From: Symmetrospora coprosmae
Lineage: Eukaryota > Basidiomycota > Cystobasidiomycetes > Symmetrosporaceae
DNA: 64,000 bases
Direction: 5' to 3'
Assembly: GCA_008802785.1 (NCBI GenBank)
Contig: VUYT01000005.1
Location: 310,001-374,000, forward strand
Part shown: positions 13,614 to 26,574 of the stretch, piece after piece
Layout: every line of letters starts with the position of its first letter
Position numbering within the stretch: the first letter of the stretch is position 1
The notes under the pieces: generated by a model
The model's input: only the letters and a program-made list of their open reading frames with translations
What the model was told of the DNA's origin: nothing
The model's database searches: none
Made by a program: the position numbers and the translations under genes

Positions 13614-13685
13614 GGTTCGCTGGCTCAATGGTAGAGCGTCAGCCTACGAAGCTGAAGGTTGCGGGTTCGAGCCCCGTGTGAATCT
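13614..13685 (+). tRNA. tRNA-Arg (anticodon ACG)
   Basis: A full cloverleaf can be drawn. The 7-bp acceptor stem pairs GGTTCGC with GTGAATC, with two G-U pairs. The D arm is GCTC/GAGC, the anticodon stem TCAGC/GCTGA encloses the loop CTACGAA, and the T arm GCGGG/CCCGT encloses TTCGAGC. The anticodon ACG reads CGN arginine codons once A34 is converted to inosine. There is no intron. The B box GGTTCGAGCC is intact, and a run of seven T at about 13702-13708 can end Pol III transcription. The CCA is not encoded. Confidence 0.93.
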
Positions 13686-16701: not shown

Positions 16702-19700
16702 ATGGTAGCGGGGCCAGCGTTGTCAAGAGAGACCGAGCTGGTCCACGCGCGATTCTGGATTGATGCGAGCATATCGACCGAGGTGGCAGTGAAGGTGCGC
16801 GAGACGCTCTGACACCATCCATCGCGTACAGCTTACATCTCAATCTCCTGCTTCTGTGCCAGCTCACCGAGCTGCTCCTCGCCATGGGAGCTCTGCCGTG
16901 TCCACCTTCCCCTGACATGGACCTCGACGACGAGGGGACCCCAGCGACCGCCTCCGCTCAGGATGGACGGCAGGCTAGCTTCGATGTGGAAGCAGTCACG
17001 CACATAATTACCCTCACACCCACCTTTCCCGGACATGCAAAGGTCGCAAGGCTCAATGTCGCAGCCATCAAAGCTGGAGAAGCGGCCGGCAAGCCTGCGA
17101 CCGCAGCTCCGGACAAGGGAAAGCCAGGCAGCCTCATTGCCGTCGTGACGGTGCGTTGACTCTCGTCCGCTCTGCCTAGTCCAGTCCAGGCTGACGCTGA
17201 TGCACCTCTTACATCAACATGGCCGTCTGCACCGACGCGTCCATTCCGAAAACAGCCCAAGTGGCTGACGCGCTCATACGACCTGAAGCGGCGCATGGAT
17301 GAGCAGTTCTATTCGCCTGATCCCCGCATGATCTTCTCTGGCATCGTCGTCTGCACGGAGGGTCTGCTCAACGGCGACTCGGCTGCCGTCATGGGCGTGG
17401 TGGCGGCGCTGGGTGGACAGTGGAGAGTCGCGCTCAACGTCGACGTGACGCATCTTGTGTGCACCCAGCCTGGAGGGGTAAGTGACGGTCCCCGCTTTGC
17501 ACGCACTTCAAGCTGCTAGCTGACCGCAGTACTCGTCCGTCGAAGACGAAATACAAGCGATGGGCAGAAGTCGGGTGGAAGCTCAACATGCGCGTCGTTC
17601 TGCCGCACTGGTGACTTCCGCTTTCCTTCTCTGATATTCGTCGACATACTCTCGCTGATGCTTCGTCACACACAGGATCGACGACTGCATCAAGCTGCAG
17701 CAGCGCGTGCCCGAGGACGACTATCTCTTTCCCGACCCCCCCTGCCTGGCCGAAACGCTCTCCAAGCCGACGCCCTATCCGAAGCGGCTACAAGCGTTCC
17801 TCGGCCTAGCTACCACGCCTGCGGCTTCGGGCGGAGCCTGCGCATTGCTCGACCCGCACGCGTCCAGCAAAGCCACACAAGCCTACCTCGACGGCATCGC
17901 GAGCACCGCTCAGAATCGGCCACTCAAGGACTCTGGCGCGTCTTCCCTCTTCTCTGGGCGCAGAGTGTATATCGCGAGCAGCTGCAATCTTGCCAGCGAG
18001 CGCCTGGAGATGTTCAAGGCGCGAATTGAGGACGCTGGCGGGAAGTGCCTGCTCGCGTCGTTGACCGGACAGCAGTTGAGCGCGCTCAGCAAAGCGGACA
18101 TCGTGGTTGTCAACCACCGCGAAGGATGGGAGTTCTGGAAGGTGCGACCGTAATACCAAGACCCTGATCCGATTGCTTCGCGCCTCCGCTGATCTTCCGC
18201 ATTGCACCTGTGAACATGCAGGCTCACGAGCTGCAGAAGACAGTGGGCAACCTCGACTGGCTCATCTTTGTCCTGTTCGGTCGGGATCAGCCGGCAGACG
18301 CGACACTGGCTTCGCCGATGGACCGCCTACTGCACTACCCGTGGCCGCAGACGGCCATCCCGGAATTCGGCAGCTACAGCTTGACGGTATCTGGCTACGC
18401 GGGATCCTCGCGCGAGTACGTCAAGAAGATGATCGAGCTGCTCGGTGCCACCTTCGAAGGCACAATGACGAAAGGCAAGACGAAGCACGTCGTCGCATCG
18501 ACCTTTTCCGGCAGCAAGGTGCAGCATGCGCAGCTCTGGAACATCCCCATCACGCACCACCGCTGGATCGAGGACTGCTTCGCCTCGTGGTCGTTCCGCG
18601 CGCTGACCAACCCAGCGTACACCAACTACGACGCCGGCGGTCCGGATTTCAGCTTCGCGAATCTAGCAGGGACGCGAGGGATCCAGCCGGCCATGATTGA
18701 TGAGTGGGCGCGGAGTGAGGAGGTGCAGCTCGAGCGGCAGAAGTCACTTGCTGAGCTCGACAGTGCACTCGCGATAGAAGCAGCTGGTGCGGGTGCGCTA
18801 GCGGAAACAGAGGAGACCCTGCAGGAGGAAAGGCCAGGCAAGGTGCAGACGAACGGTAATACGGGCAGCCTGGGCGCTAGTGCCTCGACAGGCGGCAAGC
18901 CAGCATCTCGGCCAGTCAGTCGAGTGCTCGAATCGTCGGCACAGCTCCAGCCTCAGCGCCGAGACTCTGCTTCAGCCGAGCAGCCCCACAAGCCAAAGAA
19001 GGCGGTCAGCAGCGTGAAGGTGCCTCTGCAGGCAGAACCGACCGCCGACGTCGACATGTCCGAATCTGCCGCTCCGCCGTCGCCGGTCCCGCAACGGGTC
19101 TCAAGGCCAGCCAAGGCGGCGACTACCACATCGGATGCGCGGCAGGAGTCGGCTGCTGAAGCCGAATCTTCGTCAGCGGCGGGCACGCCTGCACCTGCTG
19201 GCCCGTCGCAGGCCAAGCCGAAGAAGAAGCGCACCAGCGAGATGGCAGGCTTGCTGGACATGGAGCAAGCGGGCAGCTGGGCGGCTACGCCACCCATGCA
19301 GAGAGGCCGCAAAGCGGCCCAGGTCGCTGCAGAGCGTTTGCACCAGATCATGCCTGACGCGAACCTGGCAGAGGAGGAGCGGCGCGGTGGAGGCAAAAAG
19401 CGTCTCGACGAGATGTTTGGCTCGGCGGGCCCAGACTCGGCAAAGGGCAAGAAGCGCGTCTCTCTGCCCGCAAATGGGAGATCCTCGGCGAGAGCTTCGA
19501 GCTCGAGTGCACGCAGCCGCTCGACGGAGAGTGAGCATTCTCAGGCGGAGGACGAGGATGTCGACGATGATGGCTTGCCCGATCCCCCGGCGAGGCACGA
19601 TCCGCCCACTCCGCATGTCGTGCCGAATGGCAAGGCGAAAGGCAGGGTTGCGGCTCTGAAGCCCGCGCAGGTATCGACCGACTATTCGAGCTTCGATGCT

Positions 19701-20599
19701 CCGCCAGGGTAGGTCCACATCTAAGGCACTTCACGACGTGAGGCTAACACCCTCCGCACAGCCGCAAGCACACGGTGGTCCCGGCCAAGTCGAAAGTCCT
19801 TGTCGAAGGCAAGAAGATACACATCGCCACTACTGGCGTTGAGCTCAATGAGGCTATGCGCAAGGTGGGGGACTCCTGCTCTAGCCGTATCGCGGTACCT
19901 GGAGCTGACACATCTCCGTATAAAGGCTATGGTCAAGATCGGTGCCAAATTGTTGGGCTCAGATTTGACCGGCTGCACGCATATCATCGTCAAGAGCATC
20001 TCGCGCACGCCCAAGTTCCTGCAAGGCATCTCGCTCGGCGTCTACTTCGTCACAGAGCAGTGGATGAAGGACTCCATTAATCAGGCCGTCTTTCTTGGTG
20101 AGTGCTTCGGATGACGGTCTGGCCAGGCTATGGCTGACCTATGCCGGCCATCAGACGAAGATCGCTACTTGCTCAAAGATGAAGAAGGCGAGAAGAAGCA
20201 TGGCATCTCCCTGGAGCGCTCTGTCCGCAAGGCGCGCTCTCGCAAGGTCTTCGATGACCAGACCTTCTATATCACGCCGAAGGTCCAGCCAGCTTTCGAC
20301 TTCCTCAAGCCGATTGCAGAAGCAGGAGGAGCCAAAGTAGGAATCAGTCACTGCTACTCCAGTGTACGCGCACGCTGAGCATCGTCCACAAACAGGTCAT
20401 CAAACGCAACCCGACCATCAAGATGCTTCAGGACAAGGCCGACTGCTACGTCATCTCGTCCGTGGAAGAACGGGCAGCGTGGGAAGGCCTTGCTCAGAAT
20501 GGCATCGCTGTATACTCTGGCGAGCTCATCATCAAGGGCGTGCTTCTGCAGGACATGAAGCTGGAGCCATACACCCTGCAGCTGGAGGAGGCCACCTGA
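16702..20599 (+). CDS. Six-BRCT DNA-damage scaffold (Brc1/Rtt107/PTIP type)
   Basis: Ten exons give 1093 residues. Four BRCT repeats fill the first half: one from FWIDASISTEVAVKLTELLL to TPKWLTRSYDLKRR, a second from MIFSGIVVCTEGLL to VVLPHWIDDCIKL, a third from LFSGRRVYIASSCNLAS, and a fourth from YSLTVSGYAGSSREYV to HHRWIEDCFASW. A 350-residue Ser/Ala/Lys-rich linker follows, then a C-terminal BRCT pair (about 885-1093) with KKIHIATTGVEL and the ISRTPKFLQGI block. In this family that TG plus R-T-x-K pattern binds the phosphorylated H2A tail. The whole layout, four plus two BRCTs, matches fission yeast Brc1, yeast Rtt107 and animal PTIP, which hold repair factors at stalled or broken replication forks. 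Start chosen because exon 1 supplies the first BRCT strand. The H2A/H2B pair lies just upstream. Confidence 0.88.
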
Positions 20600-20803
20600 T
20601 CCATTGCAGCTAGAGGGAATAGGAACGCACACAGAATGGTCTGCATGTAGCAGGGCCATGCACCGCAGAGCTCGAGCGGCTTTGATAGCGGCGGATAAGC
20701 CTACTGTACAAGCAAAGAGGTCGCCAGACTGGATAATGGGGAATGCAAGCGAAGTCCGCACCAGGCGGTGAGAGGCCAAGCTAGATTGTCAAATTGGACG
20801 GTC

Positions 20804-23800
20804 TTACTCGTCATCGCCCCCATCGACATCGTCCTTGTCGTCGTCCTCGCTATCATCCCGCTTGCGTTTCTTAATAGCGCCTCCTGCCTTCTTCTCGGCC
20901 CTGGCATGCTCGCGGTCGGCCTTCTCCTGTTCCCATTCGTCTGGATGATTCAGGCGCATGTGCTTGTTGTAATTGCAGATGTGGCCGAAGACTGTAGTGC
21001 TCTTGCAACCTTCGACTTGGCAAGTGCGCGGCTGGGTCTTCGCGGCGGCGGTGGCTGCCTTCTTCTCTTCCATCCGCGTCTGCTGCCGGAGCTTTCTCTC
21101 CGCCTTTGCCTGTGTCTCCTGCTGCACCTTGGCGCCATTGACCTTCTTCACACCCTTCGCCGCATCCTTCTTCACCTGCTTGTCCAGTGCGTAGGCCTCC
21201 CAATCCTCTTTTCTGTGAGCTTTCTTGATGTGAACTTCGAGACCTTTGACGTTCCGGTAGTCCTTCTTGCATATTCCGATAGGACAGAGAATGCGAGGGC
21301 GGTCGAAGTGCGTGCGTACATGAGCCAGAAGGTCGTTATGGCCGCAGAATTTTGAAGGACAGAGGTGACAAAGGAAGATCTTCAGACCGGCGCAGCGATG
21401 ATAGTGAGCATCTCGCTGCTCCGGACCGGTCGTCCTCTTCTTGCACGGCCCTGATCCATCTTTCTTGGTCCGGGTGCAGAGGTAGTACGCCGTGCCGTCT
21501 TCCTTGTTTTTGTGCGTGGAGTATGACCCTGACGGCGCATGGGGATAAACGCGAGATTGCTGGTTCCTTCCTCGTGCGCCTCCGACTTTGGTTGCCAGCA
21601 CTTTGAGCAGTCGGGAACACTCTGCCTCCTCCAAAAAATGAAGCAGGTCGGCTGCCGTGTCCGAGATGTCATGGCCTGGCGAGGGGTGGTCGTTTTGGCC
21701 GTGATGCTCCTCGGCAATGGCACGAACAAGGTCCCAGGACGATACGGTGACCAAGGGGAAGGTGGGACTGTGGAAATGGAGGGGATAATCTTGTCGGAAG
21801 CCGGCACGGCCGTTGATCTGCCCGACCAAAAGGCGTTGCAGATGACTGGGATCGACAAGCAAGCTTTCCGGATTTGGGAGGGAGAGGCCTTGGATAGTCG
21901 CGTCCTGGAAGGCCTGCGAGAGCTCCCGCGCGGCTCCGACTGGGAAGCAGTACCCGTTCTGCAGGTCGTCGCCGTTTGCTCTGCCGGACAGCCCAATGTG
22001 CACGGCACGCCAATCTTGGTCCGGGCTCGCTTTGCCTACTGCAGATAGCTGGTGCAGCGCATTGGTCAGACCATCTTGCAGAGATGCTTCCGCTTGTACC
22101 CGCGACCCGCGAAAAGGGTACTGTCTGAACCAGTGCGACCAGCGCTGAATACGGTATCGAGCGGGCCGAGTGGATTGAGCAGAGGACAGCGGTGCCGGCT
22201 CCATGGCGTCCAAATCCGCCAACGACAGGGCGGGCCTGGTAGCGAGGCCAAAGATTTCTCGCAGTTGCGCCAGAACCGATCGCACCGCATCGCGAGACAA
22301 GACGTGGTCCTGTATTCTCCCACCCTGGCGATTGCGATTTGGCGCAGACAGTTGGGTCGACAACCCCATCATATACCTCTTTAGCCTTGCATGACGCAAA
22401 GTCGAAAGGACATGAGGGGTGTCCTCTGTATGCGAGTTCTGGGCGAGAGCGTGCACAAGGGCATGCGCTTGAAGCGTGGAGTCGGTGATGTAACCGCTGG
22501 GAGAATGGAGGAAGATCGGGAAGGTGGGGATGCAGGGATCGTCCGCGACCATGTTGAAGTCGCCAACGAGCAGCCTCAGCAGCGTCGTTTCGTGCGCGAA
22601 AAGGCTGTCGATGGAGGGCAGAATGAGTCCGCGAATAAGATGCTGCTGTAGGAGAGTTCGTAGATACGAAGGACGCGCCAAGGGTGGCACGTCCTCCTCG
22701 CATTTCCCGTCATTCAAGTCGACAATGGAGTCCATCGTCGATCTCTGAAGAAGGATGATGACGATATCTTCAAGCTGGACATTGTGGTCGAAGGTTCGCA
22801 CCCAGTCGAAGACGGCTTGCCGCTCCGCCGTCAACATGGCCAGATAGTCTGCTGGATCCAGCCATAGACAATCGGAGTGGCGAATTACTTTGACGTAGAA
22901 AGTGCCAGACTCGGTACAATTTTCGAGCTGCGTGAATCGGATCGAAAGCGCTCCGTCCTCCTTGGCCGTCTGCTTTGAGAACGGTTTGAATGTCTTCTCG
23001 AGAGCAGCAAGCTGCTTAGGTGTCAGAGGTTTCGTGAAGTCGTCTCCAAGCTGAATTTCATCGCCAGATACTCCATCGCCAGTGCCCAACTCCTCCTCGC
23101 CTACGCTTGATCCGCTTCCAAATCCGCTCTCATCCTCAGGAGCTGGGTGGATGCGCGCGCCGAGGTTGAATTCGTTGATGCCTGGCGTATCAACTAATCC
23201 TTCCCAGTGCCCTCCCCCATGGACAAAATGGATGAGGAGGGGACGTCCTGGGGCGCCGGGATTGCCGGTCAGGTAGGGCGTGGCGACATAGGGGCCAGGA
23301 ATGCGAGTGTAGACTATGATCTCTCGATTGAGAGCGACGGCGGCGATGATGACCGTAAGCTGCGTCAAGTCCGCAAGATGTCCATTTTCGCTCGTTGCTG
23401 AGGGCGTGCCGGGGAGCGCTGTGAGCGCAGCAGGCAGATTTCTGATCTCTGCCCGCTCTGCCGGCGAAAGGGGCGTCTCGGCCGCAGTGCGCGCACTGTG
23501 GGCATAGATGACGTCTTCAAGACCTTCCGCATTGTCGGCAAATTGCTGCACGTATGCGAGCACCTCTGCGCGGATGGGGACAGCTTGTCGCTGATCCCCG
23601 TCACTGGCCAGGCCAAGGCTTGCCCACCCACAGTAACCGTCACCGACAGTATGGATGTTGCGGAACGCCTGTCTATCGTCGGGCAGAGCGTACGGCACCA
23701 GCCAGGGCTGCCTGTTCAGAAAGTTGAACTGGGGAGCATGCGCCGGAGGGACTGGAGATGCTTGAACAAGGACGTTGGACAGGACAGGCGGGCTGTGATA

Positions 23801-24395
23801 GCAATCATGGCAACGTAGAAGCACATATGGGTCAGGAACTGAGTCTTTCATTGCGGGTGCGGAATTTGGTACAGGCGAGAACTGGCCGTGCAGGCCTGGT
23901 CTATTTCGGCAGAGCTCGAACGGATGGCGCTCACCTGTAGACAAGCTCGACATCATCGTCGCTGTCGCTTCTACTGTCGATATCGATGGCGGCGGGCGGA
24001 TTGATGGGTAGATGTGTGTAGACAATCTCGACATCGCTGTCGTTGTCGCTGTCACTGTCAATATTGATTACCGCGGTCGAGTTGATGGATGCATGGGTGG
24101 AGGGTGCAGACGCTGAGCCTGCACCGTTGCCGAGCCAGATACCGAGGCCGGACAGGAACTGCAGCAGCAGACGGGGGACAGCAGCATCGTCAGCGTGAAC
24201 GTGAAGCCCAATAGCTCGACAGCACCCTGTGCCTGTGCCTGTGCCTGTGACTGTGCCCGTGCTGCTGCTGCTGCTCACCTCTCCATGGTTGCCCGACTGG
24301 GCGACGGCCCGACCCGGCTCGGATAGCCCGGGGAGGCCAACGAGGGCACACAAGACGAAGCCAACTGCCAGAGCAGCGGCACGAAAACCTGACAT
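20804..24395 (-). CDS. OTU-domain cysteine protease fused to C2H2 zinc fingers
   Basis: Main exon 23792-20804 plus a proposed first exon 24395-23935, joined across a 142-nt intron that keeps frame, gives 1149 residues. OTU signs: TVGDGYCGWASLGL (Cys about 208), DLTQLTVIIAAVALNREIIVY, and HFVHGGGHWEGL (His about 349). Exon 1 carries two acidic-flanked hydrophobic motifs (SDSDVEIV-like and DDDVELVY) that look like SUMO-interaction motifs. After the OTU fold comes a 400-residue region with an internal repeat, then classical C2H2 fingers (CHLCPSKF...HVRTH; CPIGICKKDYRNVKGLEVHI), a Lys/Glu-rich helix, a third finger-like block and KKRKRDD, a likely nuclear signal. OTU proteases remove ubiquitin or ubiquitin-like proteins; substrate unknown. 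Without the splice, a start near 23979 would omit the SIM-like part. Confidence 0.65.
24228..24275. repeat. TGTGCC hexamer and GCT triplet microsatellite
   Basis: About four copies of TGTGCC with one variant, followed by a run of GCTGCT units. It lies inside the proposed first exon of the OTU gene, where it encodes Thr-Gly and Ser repeats. Confidence 0.75.
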
Positions 24396-25277
24396 GCTGT
24401 CCCACTTGCTGCTGCTAGGCTGAGATGTATCTGGGGAGGTGTAAGCTGCTTCTGCTGCGCGGTGAGGGGCGTGGGAGAGATGGGTAGGGTAAGGGTCGAT
24501 GGGCTGCGGAAGGGCAGGGGGGGTCTCAGACGCCACAGAGTGCATCTGCGTGTTAGCTAGGAGGTACGTAGAGTCCGCTGACAGGCTGGAAACGCGAATT
24601 CGGAAAGTGCGGAAAAGGCGGACACTGAGACAGAGGATATCAGTATCGAATGATGATTCGTTGCAACGGGAAAGTCCATGCGAGCTTCCAGAGCCAGCTC
24701 ATATCGCGCTAGCTGGTGATGCAAGCTGGTGAGGGAAGATTCCATCGGGATCCCATCCATATCTGCCCGTCCGAGGGCACAAAGTCGAGCCAGCCAAGGT
24801 CTTCTCCGGTCCACTGCGAGATCGATAGAATGGTCGCACATACACTGTGGAAAGCAATAATCGATGCCAGCAAGCCGTGCCTTGCATCCCGGGTTGTCGT
24901 GGCCTCGCATTGCTGCCTCGTCATGCAGGACTGATGGACTCCCTCCGCAAAGACAGCGGGCAGTCGGGAGCGCAAAGGCGGGGCGGAGATGTGCGCTCAA
25001 GGGAAGCCATCTTGTTCCTATGAACGTCATCCAGTAGCCTATGTCTATGGTGAGTGTGTGCGTACGCTGAAGAGCTACTCGAGCCGCCCATCATGCAGGA
25101 CCTTGCAGTCACGAGGCGCCCGGGCGGATTATCATGCCGCCACGGAGCTCCTCCGAACGGCCCGGCAACCCCTCAGGTGAGGAGCAAGACGTGAGGAGGG
25201 GGGCCTTCGCAGAGGGCAGCACAAGCTGCTTTTTGAGCGGGACGTCTTACAGATGCTACAAACGTGCGGAGGCAAAC

Positions 25278-25299
25278 GAAAGTCCGCACGCGGACTTTC
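25278..25299. repeat. Perfect 10-bp inverted repeat
   Basis: GAAAGTCCGC at 25278-25287 is followed after two bases (AC) by its exact reverse complement at 25290-25299. It could form a short cruciform or serve as a dimeric protein site. Confidence 0.8.
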
Positions 25300-25501
25300 A
25301 TCACAGTCATCCACCATCGTCCATCGGGTTGGAAGCCAGTCTGAAGATCCTACTATAGTGGGTAGTTCATATATCCCGTTGTTTGTTCCCGCTCCTCTTC
25401 GCGATACTGCAATACGCATGACCGAGTCCACTCACATTCATTAGTGTCCGTCAGGCTCGGCGGAGGCGACATGCAGCGCAGAGCACCACGACCGTTCAAG
25501 A

Positions 25502-25685: not shown

Positions 25686-25803
25686 CTCGATGGTCAATGC
25701 TCAATGCTCAATGCTCAATGCTCGATGCTCAGTGCTCAATGCCTCTCTATAGATATGTGCTCGATGCTCAATGCTCAATGCTCAGTGCTTCATGCTCAAT
25801 GCT
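25686..25803. repeat. CTCAATG heptamer minisatellite, two clusters
   Basis: About eight copies of CTCAATG and one-base variants (CTCGATG, CTCAGTG, GTCAATG) run from 25686 to 25742, then a 16-base break with CTCTCTATAGATATG, then about six more copies to 25803. All three frames stay open on the plus strand because the unit lacks stops, so the open frames here are not evidence of coding. Confidence 0.9.
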
Positions 25804-26574
25804 CCCGTCAGCCGCCTGATTCACCATTCTGAGGAAGGGATGGCTGTCAGTCTACGAGTCTCTGCGTCCGGTCTTAGCGGAAAAAACTAACGGGCCATGC
25901 AACCGGTAATTTCATCGCTTTTTGCGAGATGGACGGTCGCGCGCGTCAACACATCTATGTCCTGCTACTGTAGGTCCGCCTAACGGTCGGATTGCGATTG
26001 GCTCGTATTCAGGGCGCGTTCGCGCGATATCTTAACGACCGCGTATTTGTGGCATGGGGCTCGCGCGCTGTTTCATCTGTTGATGGTGGAGGGGAATGAG
26101 TGTCAAGAAGCTGAGCGGAGGCCTCCGAGGAGGGGCTAAGTATGGCACGGGGGCAGCGGCTGCGACGGCCGCTCGGTGACAATACAGAGTGTGGAGGGGA
26201 GGGCTTGCGGGTCACACTCCGACTTCTGCAGCGTCTGACATGACGCATGTGAGTTTCGGCTATCTTGAGCTCAGGGCAAAGAGGCGGTAAGGAAGATAGA
26301 TGCTGTGCGAAGGGGACTGAGACGAGGTGGAGAGCGGTGAGTACCATCTATGCTAGGCACTGGAGTTAGGAGATGGGAATGTGAGGAGGCTCTTCGCCTC
26401 TATTGCGCCATAGCAGCGCCTGGTTCGGAAGCAGTGGGAAGAAGAGGTTGGGATTGGCCAGGGCTCTCAAGGGCCAAGTCAGTGATGGCGTCTCGGATCG
26501 TATAAGCATCGGCCACGCTGCTGCATTGCTAGCTTAGAGTCAAGTCGGAACCAGGTCGTCGTAGCCTGAGCCTT

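Follow-up and report, generated by a model that had tools for sequence, protein, structure and literature searches.

According to the publications on them (cited here by PMC number, each as represented by an excerpt), YOD1/OTU1 enzymes have an N-terminal UBX domain, an OTU domain and a C-terminal C2H2-type finger (PMC10478497, PMC10038098). The bare combination of an OTU domain and a C2H2 finger is already known from YOD1/OTU1, and the statement in an earlier note on this DNA, that no family with the layout analyzed here has been described, was too strong given the UBX-OTU-C2H2 arrangement of this enzyme (PMC10478497, PMC10038098). OTU domains are also carried by Ginger1 and some Helitron proteins (PMC2836005), and ZUP1/ZUFSP is a ubiquitin peptidase protein (PMC5824887). 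Two OTU proteins from fungi were reported to reduce ubiquitination in human HEK293T cells (PMC13208475); the main text of that paper mentions neither "zinc finger" nor "signal peptide". No OTU enzyme combining multiple C2H2 fingers with SUMO motifs was presented in the titles and abstract openings of the literature matches listed.

Here, we describe a gene in the window (the whole 64-kb stretch of DNA that was analyzed, to which coordinates refer unless indicated) whose predicted product joins an OTU-like part to C2H2 fingers. All features of the gene are on the minus strand. Our preferred reading, held tentatively and at slightly below an even chance, is that the product is a divergent OTU-superfamily cysteine peptidase that is fused via a duplicated module to C2H2 fingers and that would act near nucleic acid or chromatin.

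The gene model consists of two exons. Exon 1 (23935..24395) is open from ATG 24395 to the splice donor and contains residues 1-153 and two bases of codon 154. Exon 2 (20804..23792) extends from the last base of codon 154 to the stop codon and has 995 open codons. Between them is an intron of 142 nt (23793..23934) with GT...AG ends (CAG/GTGAGC...CACAG/C) and a single CTGAC branch-like site, the acceptor being the first AG 3' of CTGAC. Splicing keeps the frame, and the product (24395-23935 joined to 23792-20804) is stop-free and 1149 residues long. An intron had previously been proposed at 23792-23935; we place one there too, but those limits overshoot by a single base on either side, and splicing at them would disrupt the frame. 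The OTU-like part and the C2H2 fingers share one uninterrupted 995-codon exon.

We analyzed codon bias in 30-codon windows, with training on seven open frames of the 64-kb window. Of the three frames on the minus strand, that of exon 1 ranked first in 6 of the 7 windows starting at 24395-24035, and the exon-2 frame ranked first in 44 of the 49 windows starting at 23795-20915, with scores near zero over residues about 430-730. Because the exon-2 frame was also best, with scores near zero, in the three windows that cover the intron (starts 23975-23855), an alternative unspliced start in this frame, inside the intron, is possible. Upstream of the acceptor, the exon-2 frame stays open for a further 92 codons, which has a chance probability of about 0.12. 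If the start were unspliced, the signal-like N-terminus and both of the VE(I/L)V cores described below would be lost.

Residues 1-32 (24300..24395) look like a signal peptide, as assessed by hydropathy and a cleavage-like site (AVA before Q33) at the predicted start. None of the 561 Met starts in the window (at least 60 codons, six frames) was more hydrophobic, and this start was among the 13 of 561 that passed a simple signal-peptide-like rule. ATG 24395 has an A at -3, and ATG 24545, the one further in-frame ATG of that open frame, has a C at -3. The signal-like start disfavors a simple nuclear role unless another start is used, and a nuclear role would require initiation at another codon, a signal that does not function, or delivery elsewhere.

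The protein could enter the secretory pathway via residues 1-32 and act outside its own nucleus, either as a secreted protein, in the ER lumen, or in another organism; if it were delivered to another organism, the NLS and fingers would act there. The top hydrophobicity rank, the AVA/Q cleavage-like site and the A at -3 of the ATG are consistent with this possibility, as are the fungal OTU proteins that lower ubiquitination in HEK293T cells (PMC13208475). Counting against it are the three N-glycosylation sequons in the protein and the fact that the start is predicted: initiation at ATG 24545 would bury the signal, and a product that starts, unspliced, in the exon-2 frame would lack it. In addition, a length of 1149 residues, together with fingers, a KKRKR run and long acidic runs, is unusual for a secreted protein. 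Taken together, we consider secretory entry doubtful.

Downstream of the signal-like region are two motifs, VEIV and VELV, that the earlier note had placed in acidic runs near the start of the protein, and both are present. VEIV (residues 122-125; 24021..24032) and VELV (residues 149-152; 23940..23951) are SIM-like cores that each follow an acidic-serine run. SIMs are described as following a degenerate consensus, hxhh or hhxh, that is often flanked by acidic residues (PMC8616421). None of the literature matches listed for VEIV contained this motif. Four SIM-like cores in the protein (VINI, VEIV, VELV and IVDL) have, on one side, eight residues of which four or more are acidic, compared to a mean of 0.33 such cores in 2000 shuffles. 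VEIV and VELV both lie within an 81-nt tandem duplication (23936..24097; two copies, 75% identical), and because they occur in copies of one repeat they count as one observation. The copies differ at 20 sites, of which 8 are first, 5 second and 7 third codon positions; there is no third-position excess and no sign of constraint. Of the suggestion that the protein is drawn to SUMOylated targets, then, the presence of SIM-like cores with acidic flanks stands, but VEIV and VELV are not independent of each other and carry no constraint signal. The putative SIM-like cores might add SUMO binding.

The OTU-like domain covers about residues 190-365 (23159..23686), as assessed by a profile match at residues 202-241, by hhalign, and by a co-linear alignment that reaches the His motif. 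The Cys/His pair that had been noticed in a single 1149-residue reading is there. GDGYC (residues 204-208; 23630..23644) has D205 at an oxyanion-type position and C208 as putative nucleophile, and GGGHWEGL (23195..23218) contains H349, followed by E351 at +2. The D-x-x-C arrangement (D205-G-Y-C208) is as in OTU cysteine peptidases, and the arrangement of a His and an aromatic residue with an acidic residue at +2 is present as H349-W350-E351, with E in place of D or N. Invariant columns of an OTU profile are occupied by D205, C208, R228 and H349; W350 stands for Tyr, and E351 is at a column with Asp or Asn in the five OTU cores that make up the profile. The acidic or amide residue (Asp/Asn) two positions from the His is often, and not always, needed in OTU enzymes (PMC10038098).

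The profile was built from five human OTU cores, four of the five being confirmed by the names of their PDB matches. Searched against PDB, it recovered 43 distinct sequences at E≤0.001. The matches were named as OTU enzymes, ubiquitin thioesterases, or viral polymerase or replicase chains, the last of which we take to be carriers of OTU domains. When the whole protein was searched alone, it matched the profile with an E value of 4.8e-4 at residues 202-241. When 2222 sequences were ranked together (the OTU segment, 2000 shuffles and 221 ORFs), the OTU segment was first, with 10.4 bits (E 0.088), followed by the best of the 2000 shuffles (7.3 bits), the whole gene ORF (7.0) and the best of 220 other ORFs (2.1). 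Comparison of the OTU part to the profile by hhalign gave P 4.8e-4 and probability 32. The hhalign score was 28.9, compared to a best of 22.2 among 500 shuffles, and none of the 220 other ORFs was among the ten best controls (scores down to 19.0). The profile alignment runs on in order to GGGHWEGL, and the His half alone scored -1.6 bits. These results indicate that the OTU similarity is weak but above chance.

The Cys/His pattern was also rare in its own right. A strict form of it was found in 2 of 100,000 shuffles and a loose form in 73 of 100,000, the pattern having been chosen post hoc. Among the 221 ORFs in the window with 120 codons or more, the loose form matched a single one, the ORF of the OTU gene.

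Searches of the OTU part against Pfam, PHROGs, NCBIfam and PDB sequences yielded no OTU family at E≤10; HMMER filters discard most weak matches, which bears on the Pfam result. Single-sequence AlphaFold of the OTU part gave a pLDDT of 37 and a pTM of 0.30, and Foldseek gave no match at E≤0.001. The proposal that this is an OTU enzyme is borne out in the active-site layout (D205/C208/H349/E351) and in detectable similarity to OTU cores, but not in the fold, for which there is only the pLDDT 37 model. We assign the segment to the OTU type with moderate confidence, and the enzyme class is probably OTU.

If the OTU likeness were due to chance, or belonged to an inactive protein, residues 154-370 would fold differently and contain DGYC and GHWE by coincidence. 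The joint-list E value of 0.088, the low-confidence fold model (pLDDT 37) and the lack of a family model match in the collections searched all fit this explanation. Against it, the OTU segment ranked first among the controls in the profile tests, and the motif pair occurred in 2 of 100,000 shuffles, albeit with a pattern chosen post hoc. We consider a chance or inactive likeness unlikely.

Between the OTU-like part and the fingers is an internal duplication, with copy 1 at residues 512-653 (22295..22720) and copy 2 at residues 763-908 (21530..21967). The two copies are 31% identical, and their Smith-Waterman score of 112 was reached by none of 1000 shuffles (mean 32, SD 5, maximum 55). No comparable similarity was seen in the remaining 14 pairs of protein segments. 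The repeat pair had no Pfam match at E≤10, and the best matches to the repeats among PDB sequences had E values of 0.35 and 0.27. AlphaFold of the pair gave a pLDDT of 44 and a pTM of 0.39, and Foldseek gave no match at E≤0.001. This duplicated domain without a known family match is real and was absent from the earlier note; together with the signal-like start, it alters the picture given there. The repeats do not appear to be decayed OTU copies (hhalign against the OTU profile, P 0.64). An NCBIfam oxidoreductase model, PRK06179.1, matched the first repeat segment at E 0.037, far under its cut-off. A match to DUF4607 (Pfam; E 0.013), located outside the OTU part, was set aside as a weak stray.

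The classical C2H2 fingers and the KKRKRDD nuclear-type signal described in the earlier note were both confirmed, with finger spacings read from the sequence. Two fingers (21215..21370) are at residues 962-982 (C-x2-C-x12-H-x3-H) and 990-1013 (C-x4-C-x12-H-x4-H), and a third, C2H2-like finger is at residues 1078-1103 (20945..21022; C-x4-C-x14-H-x4-H). Two of the units fit the consensus C-x2-4-C-x12-H-x3-5-H, and the third has x14. On the C-terminal segment, the Pfam models zf-C2H2_4 and zf-C2H2 gave E values of 3.4e-4 and 0.0069, and on all of exon 2 the Pfam C2H2 models gave 0.096 and 0.049, in each case under the curated cut-offs. The WT1 fingers in PDB matched the finger part at E 6.2e-4. 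An NCBIfam model, Rmt, matched the finger segment at E 0.16, far under its cut-off. The KKRKRDD sequence (20852..20872) is an NLS-like basic run, with KKRKR at residues 1128-1132, and is followed by an acidic tail. There is a further Cys/His cluster (CTRTKKDGSGPC...HYHRC) at about residues 923-952, before the first classical finger, which is possibly a fourth zinc site.

A divergent OTU-superfamily peptidase fused to fingers, our preferred reading, would work as follows. C208 would be the nucleophile and H349 the base, with E351 orienting the His and D205 at the oxyanion position. The OTU part would be joined through the duplicated module to the three C2H2 fingers and the basic tail. The fingers and basic tail would hold the protein on nucleic acid or on a chromatin partner, and the OTU part would strip ubiquitin or a ubiquitin-like tag from proteins nearby. 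The single reading frame, the layout of the motifs, the weak similarity to the OTU profile, the duplication and the finger motifs were observed; the fold, activity, nuclear location and substrate of the protein are inferred.

We searched for relatives in viral contigs, prokaryote genomes, phages and plasmids, collections that lie outside the eukaryotic genomes. There were 2 pattern matches to the OTU part in viral contigs and 16 to the exon-2 protein in prokaryote genomes, none of which was confirmed. There was no match to the repeat part in viral contigs, and no relatives were found via the OTU part in phages or via the repeat part in plasmids. Two DNA patterns made for the OTU motifs matched 2 loci each in viral contigs, and one of these four loci had an ORF above the profile inclusion threshold, which was not enough for building a deep alignment. 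A viral contig (L001:1053-6215) contains a 1721-aa open frame with an OTU-like N-terminus that scored 12.7 bits with the OTU profile, followed, as judged by eye, by helicase- and DNA methyltransferase-like parts. We counted this similar score in a viral-contig ORF in favor of the OTU reading.

The gene is flanked by a BRCT-domain gene that converges on it from the left and by a GH16-like gene to the right. The BRCT gene (16764-20599, plus strand) has its BRCT match in the 18168-19709 frame and is apparently multi-exon by eye; about 200 bases separate its stop codon from that of the OTU gene. Imperfect tandem ATGCTCA-type units are visible by eye at 25690-25810, in the interval that separates the OTU gene from the GH16-like gene. 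In a Pfam scan of nine other ORFs, one had a bZIP match and one a weak diphthamide match, and a diphthamide gene had no match in PDB at E≤1e-10. The sole Rfam match at the gathering threshold in the window is a tRNA-Arg (ACG) at 13614-13685.

Descent of the gene from a mobile element, with the duplicated module perhaps a decayed transposon part, is quite improbable: Ginger1 and some Helitron proteins do carry OTU domains, likewise as a divergent OTU inside a large multidomain protein (PMC2836005), and a weak likeness to host OTUs would suit a fast-evolving element, but here the gene has no transposase, integrase or helicase domain match in Pfam and no second copy within the 64-kb window, none of the three inverted-repeat pairs (20-26 nt) in 20500-25500 flanks it, and its neighbors on the two sides are the BRCT and GH16 genes. 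We give a very small chance to the most far-reaching proposal, a new OTU lineage with a signal peptide, paired SUMO-binding cores, a divergent OTU core, a duplicated module not described before and C-terminal fingers in one chain, which would be a nucleic-acid-guided editor of ubiquitin or SUMO-ubiquitin, possibly exported to the nucleus of another organism.

Were the layout conserved in relatives, the preferred reading of a divergent OTU peptidase fused to fingers would point to an OTU enzyme directed to DNA or chromatin, of which there was no example among the titles and abstract openings of the literature matches listed, and the repeat pair would establish a duplicated domain without a counterpart in Pfam. 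Since its OTU-type core is too divergent for Pfam, enzymes of this kind may be undercounted.

ZUP1 contains zinc fingers. ZUP1/ZUFSP and Mug105, however, have a peptidase of another family, for which there was no Pfam match here. SIM-bearing proteins such as RNF4 and RNF111 resemble the protein in having hxhh cores next to acidic or serine-rich stretches (for the consensus, see PMC8616421), but RNF4 and RNF111 are ubiquitin ligases, and both VE(I/L)V motifs here come from one tandem duplication. The OTUD1, OTUD3, OTUD5 and OTUD6B cores likewise have D-x-x-C, an Arg 20 residues after the Cys, and an aromatic residue directly after the His, position +2 from which is acidic or an amide. The protein described here differs from the OTUD-type cores in being below Pfam detection and in having W for Y after the His and E at +2, and its Cys-to-His distance is 141 residues, compared to 106 in the OTUD3 sequence that was used. 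With OTU1/YOD1 (OTUD2), it shares an OTU core ahead of a C-terminal C2H2 finger. In contrast to YOD1, which has a UBX domain, neither the exon-1 nor the exon-2 frame had a UBX match in Pfam. There are three finger motifs here, differing from OTU1/YOD1 in number and spacing, and the first finger lies about 610 residues past H349; the duplicated module falls within the roughly 600 residues that separate the OTU part from the fingers.
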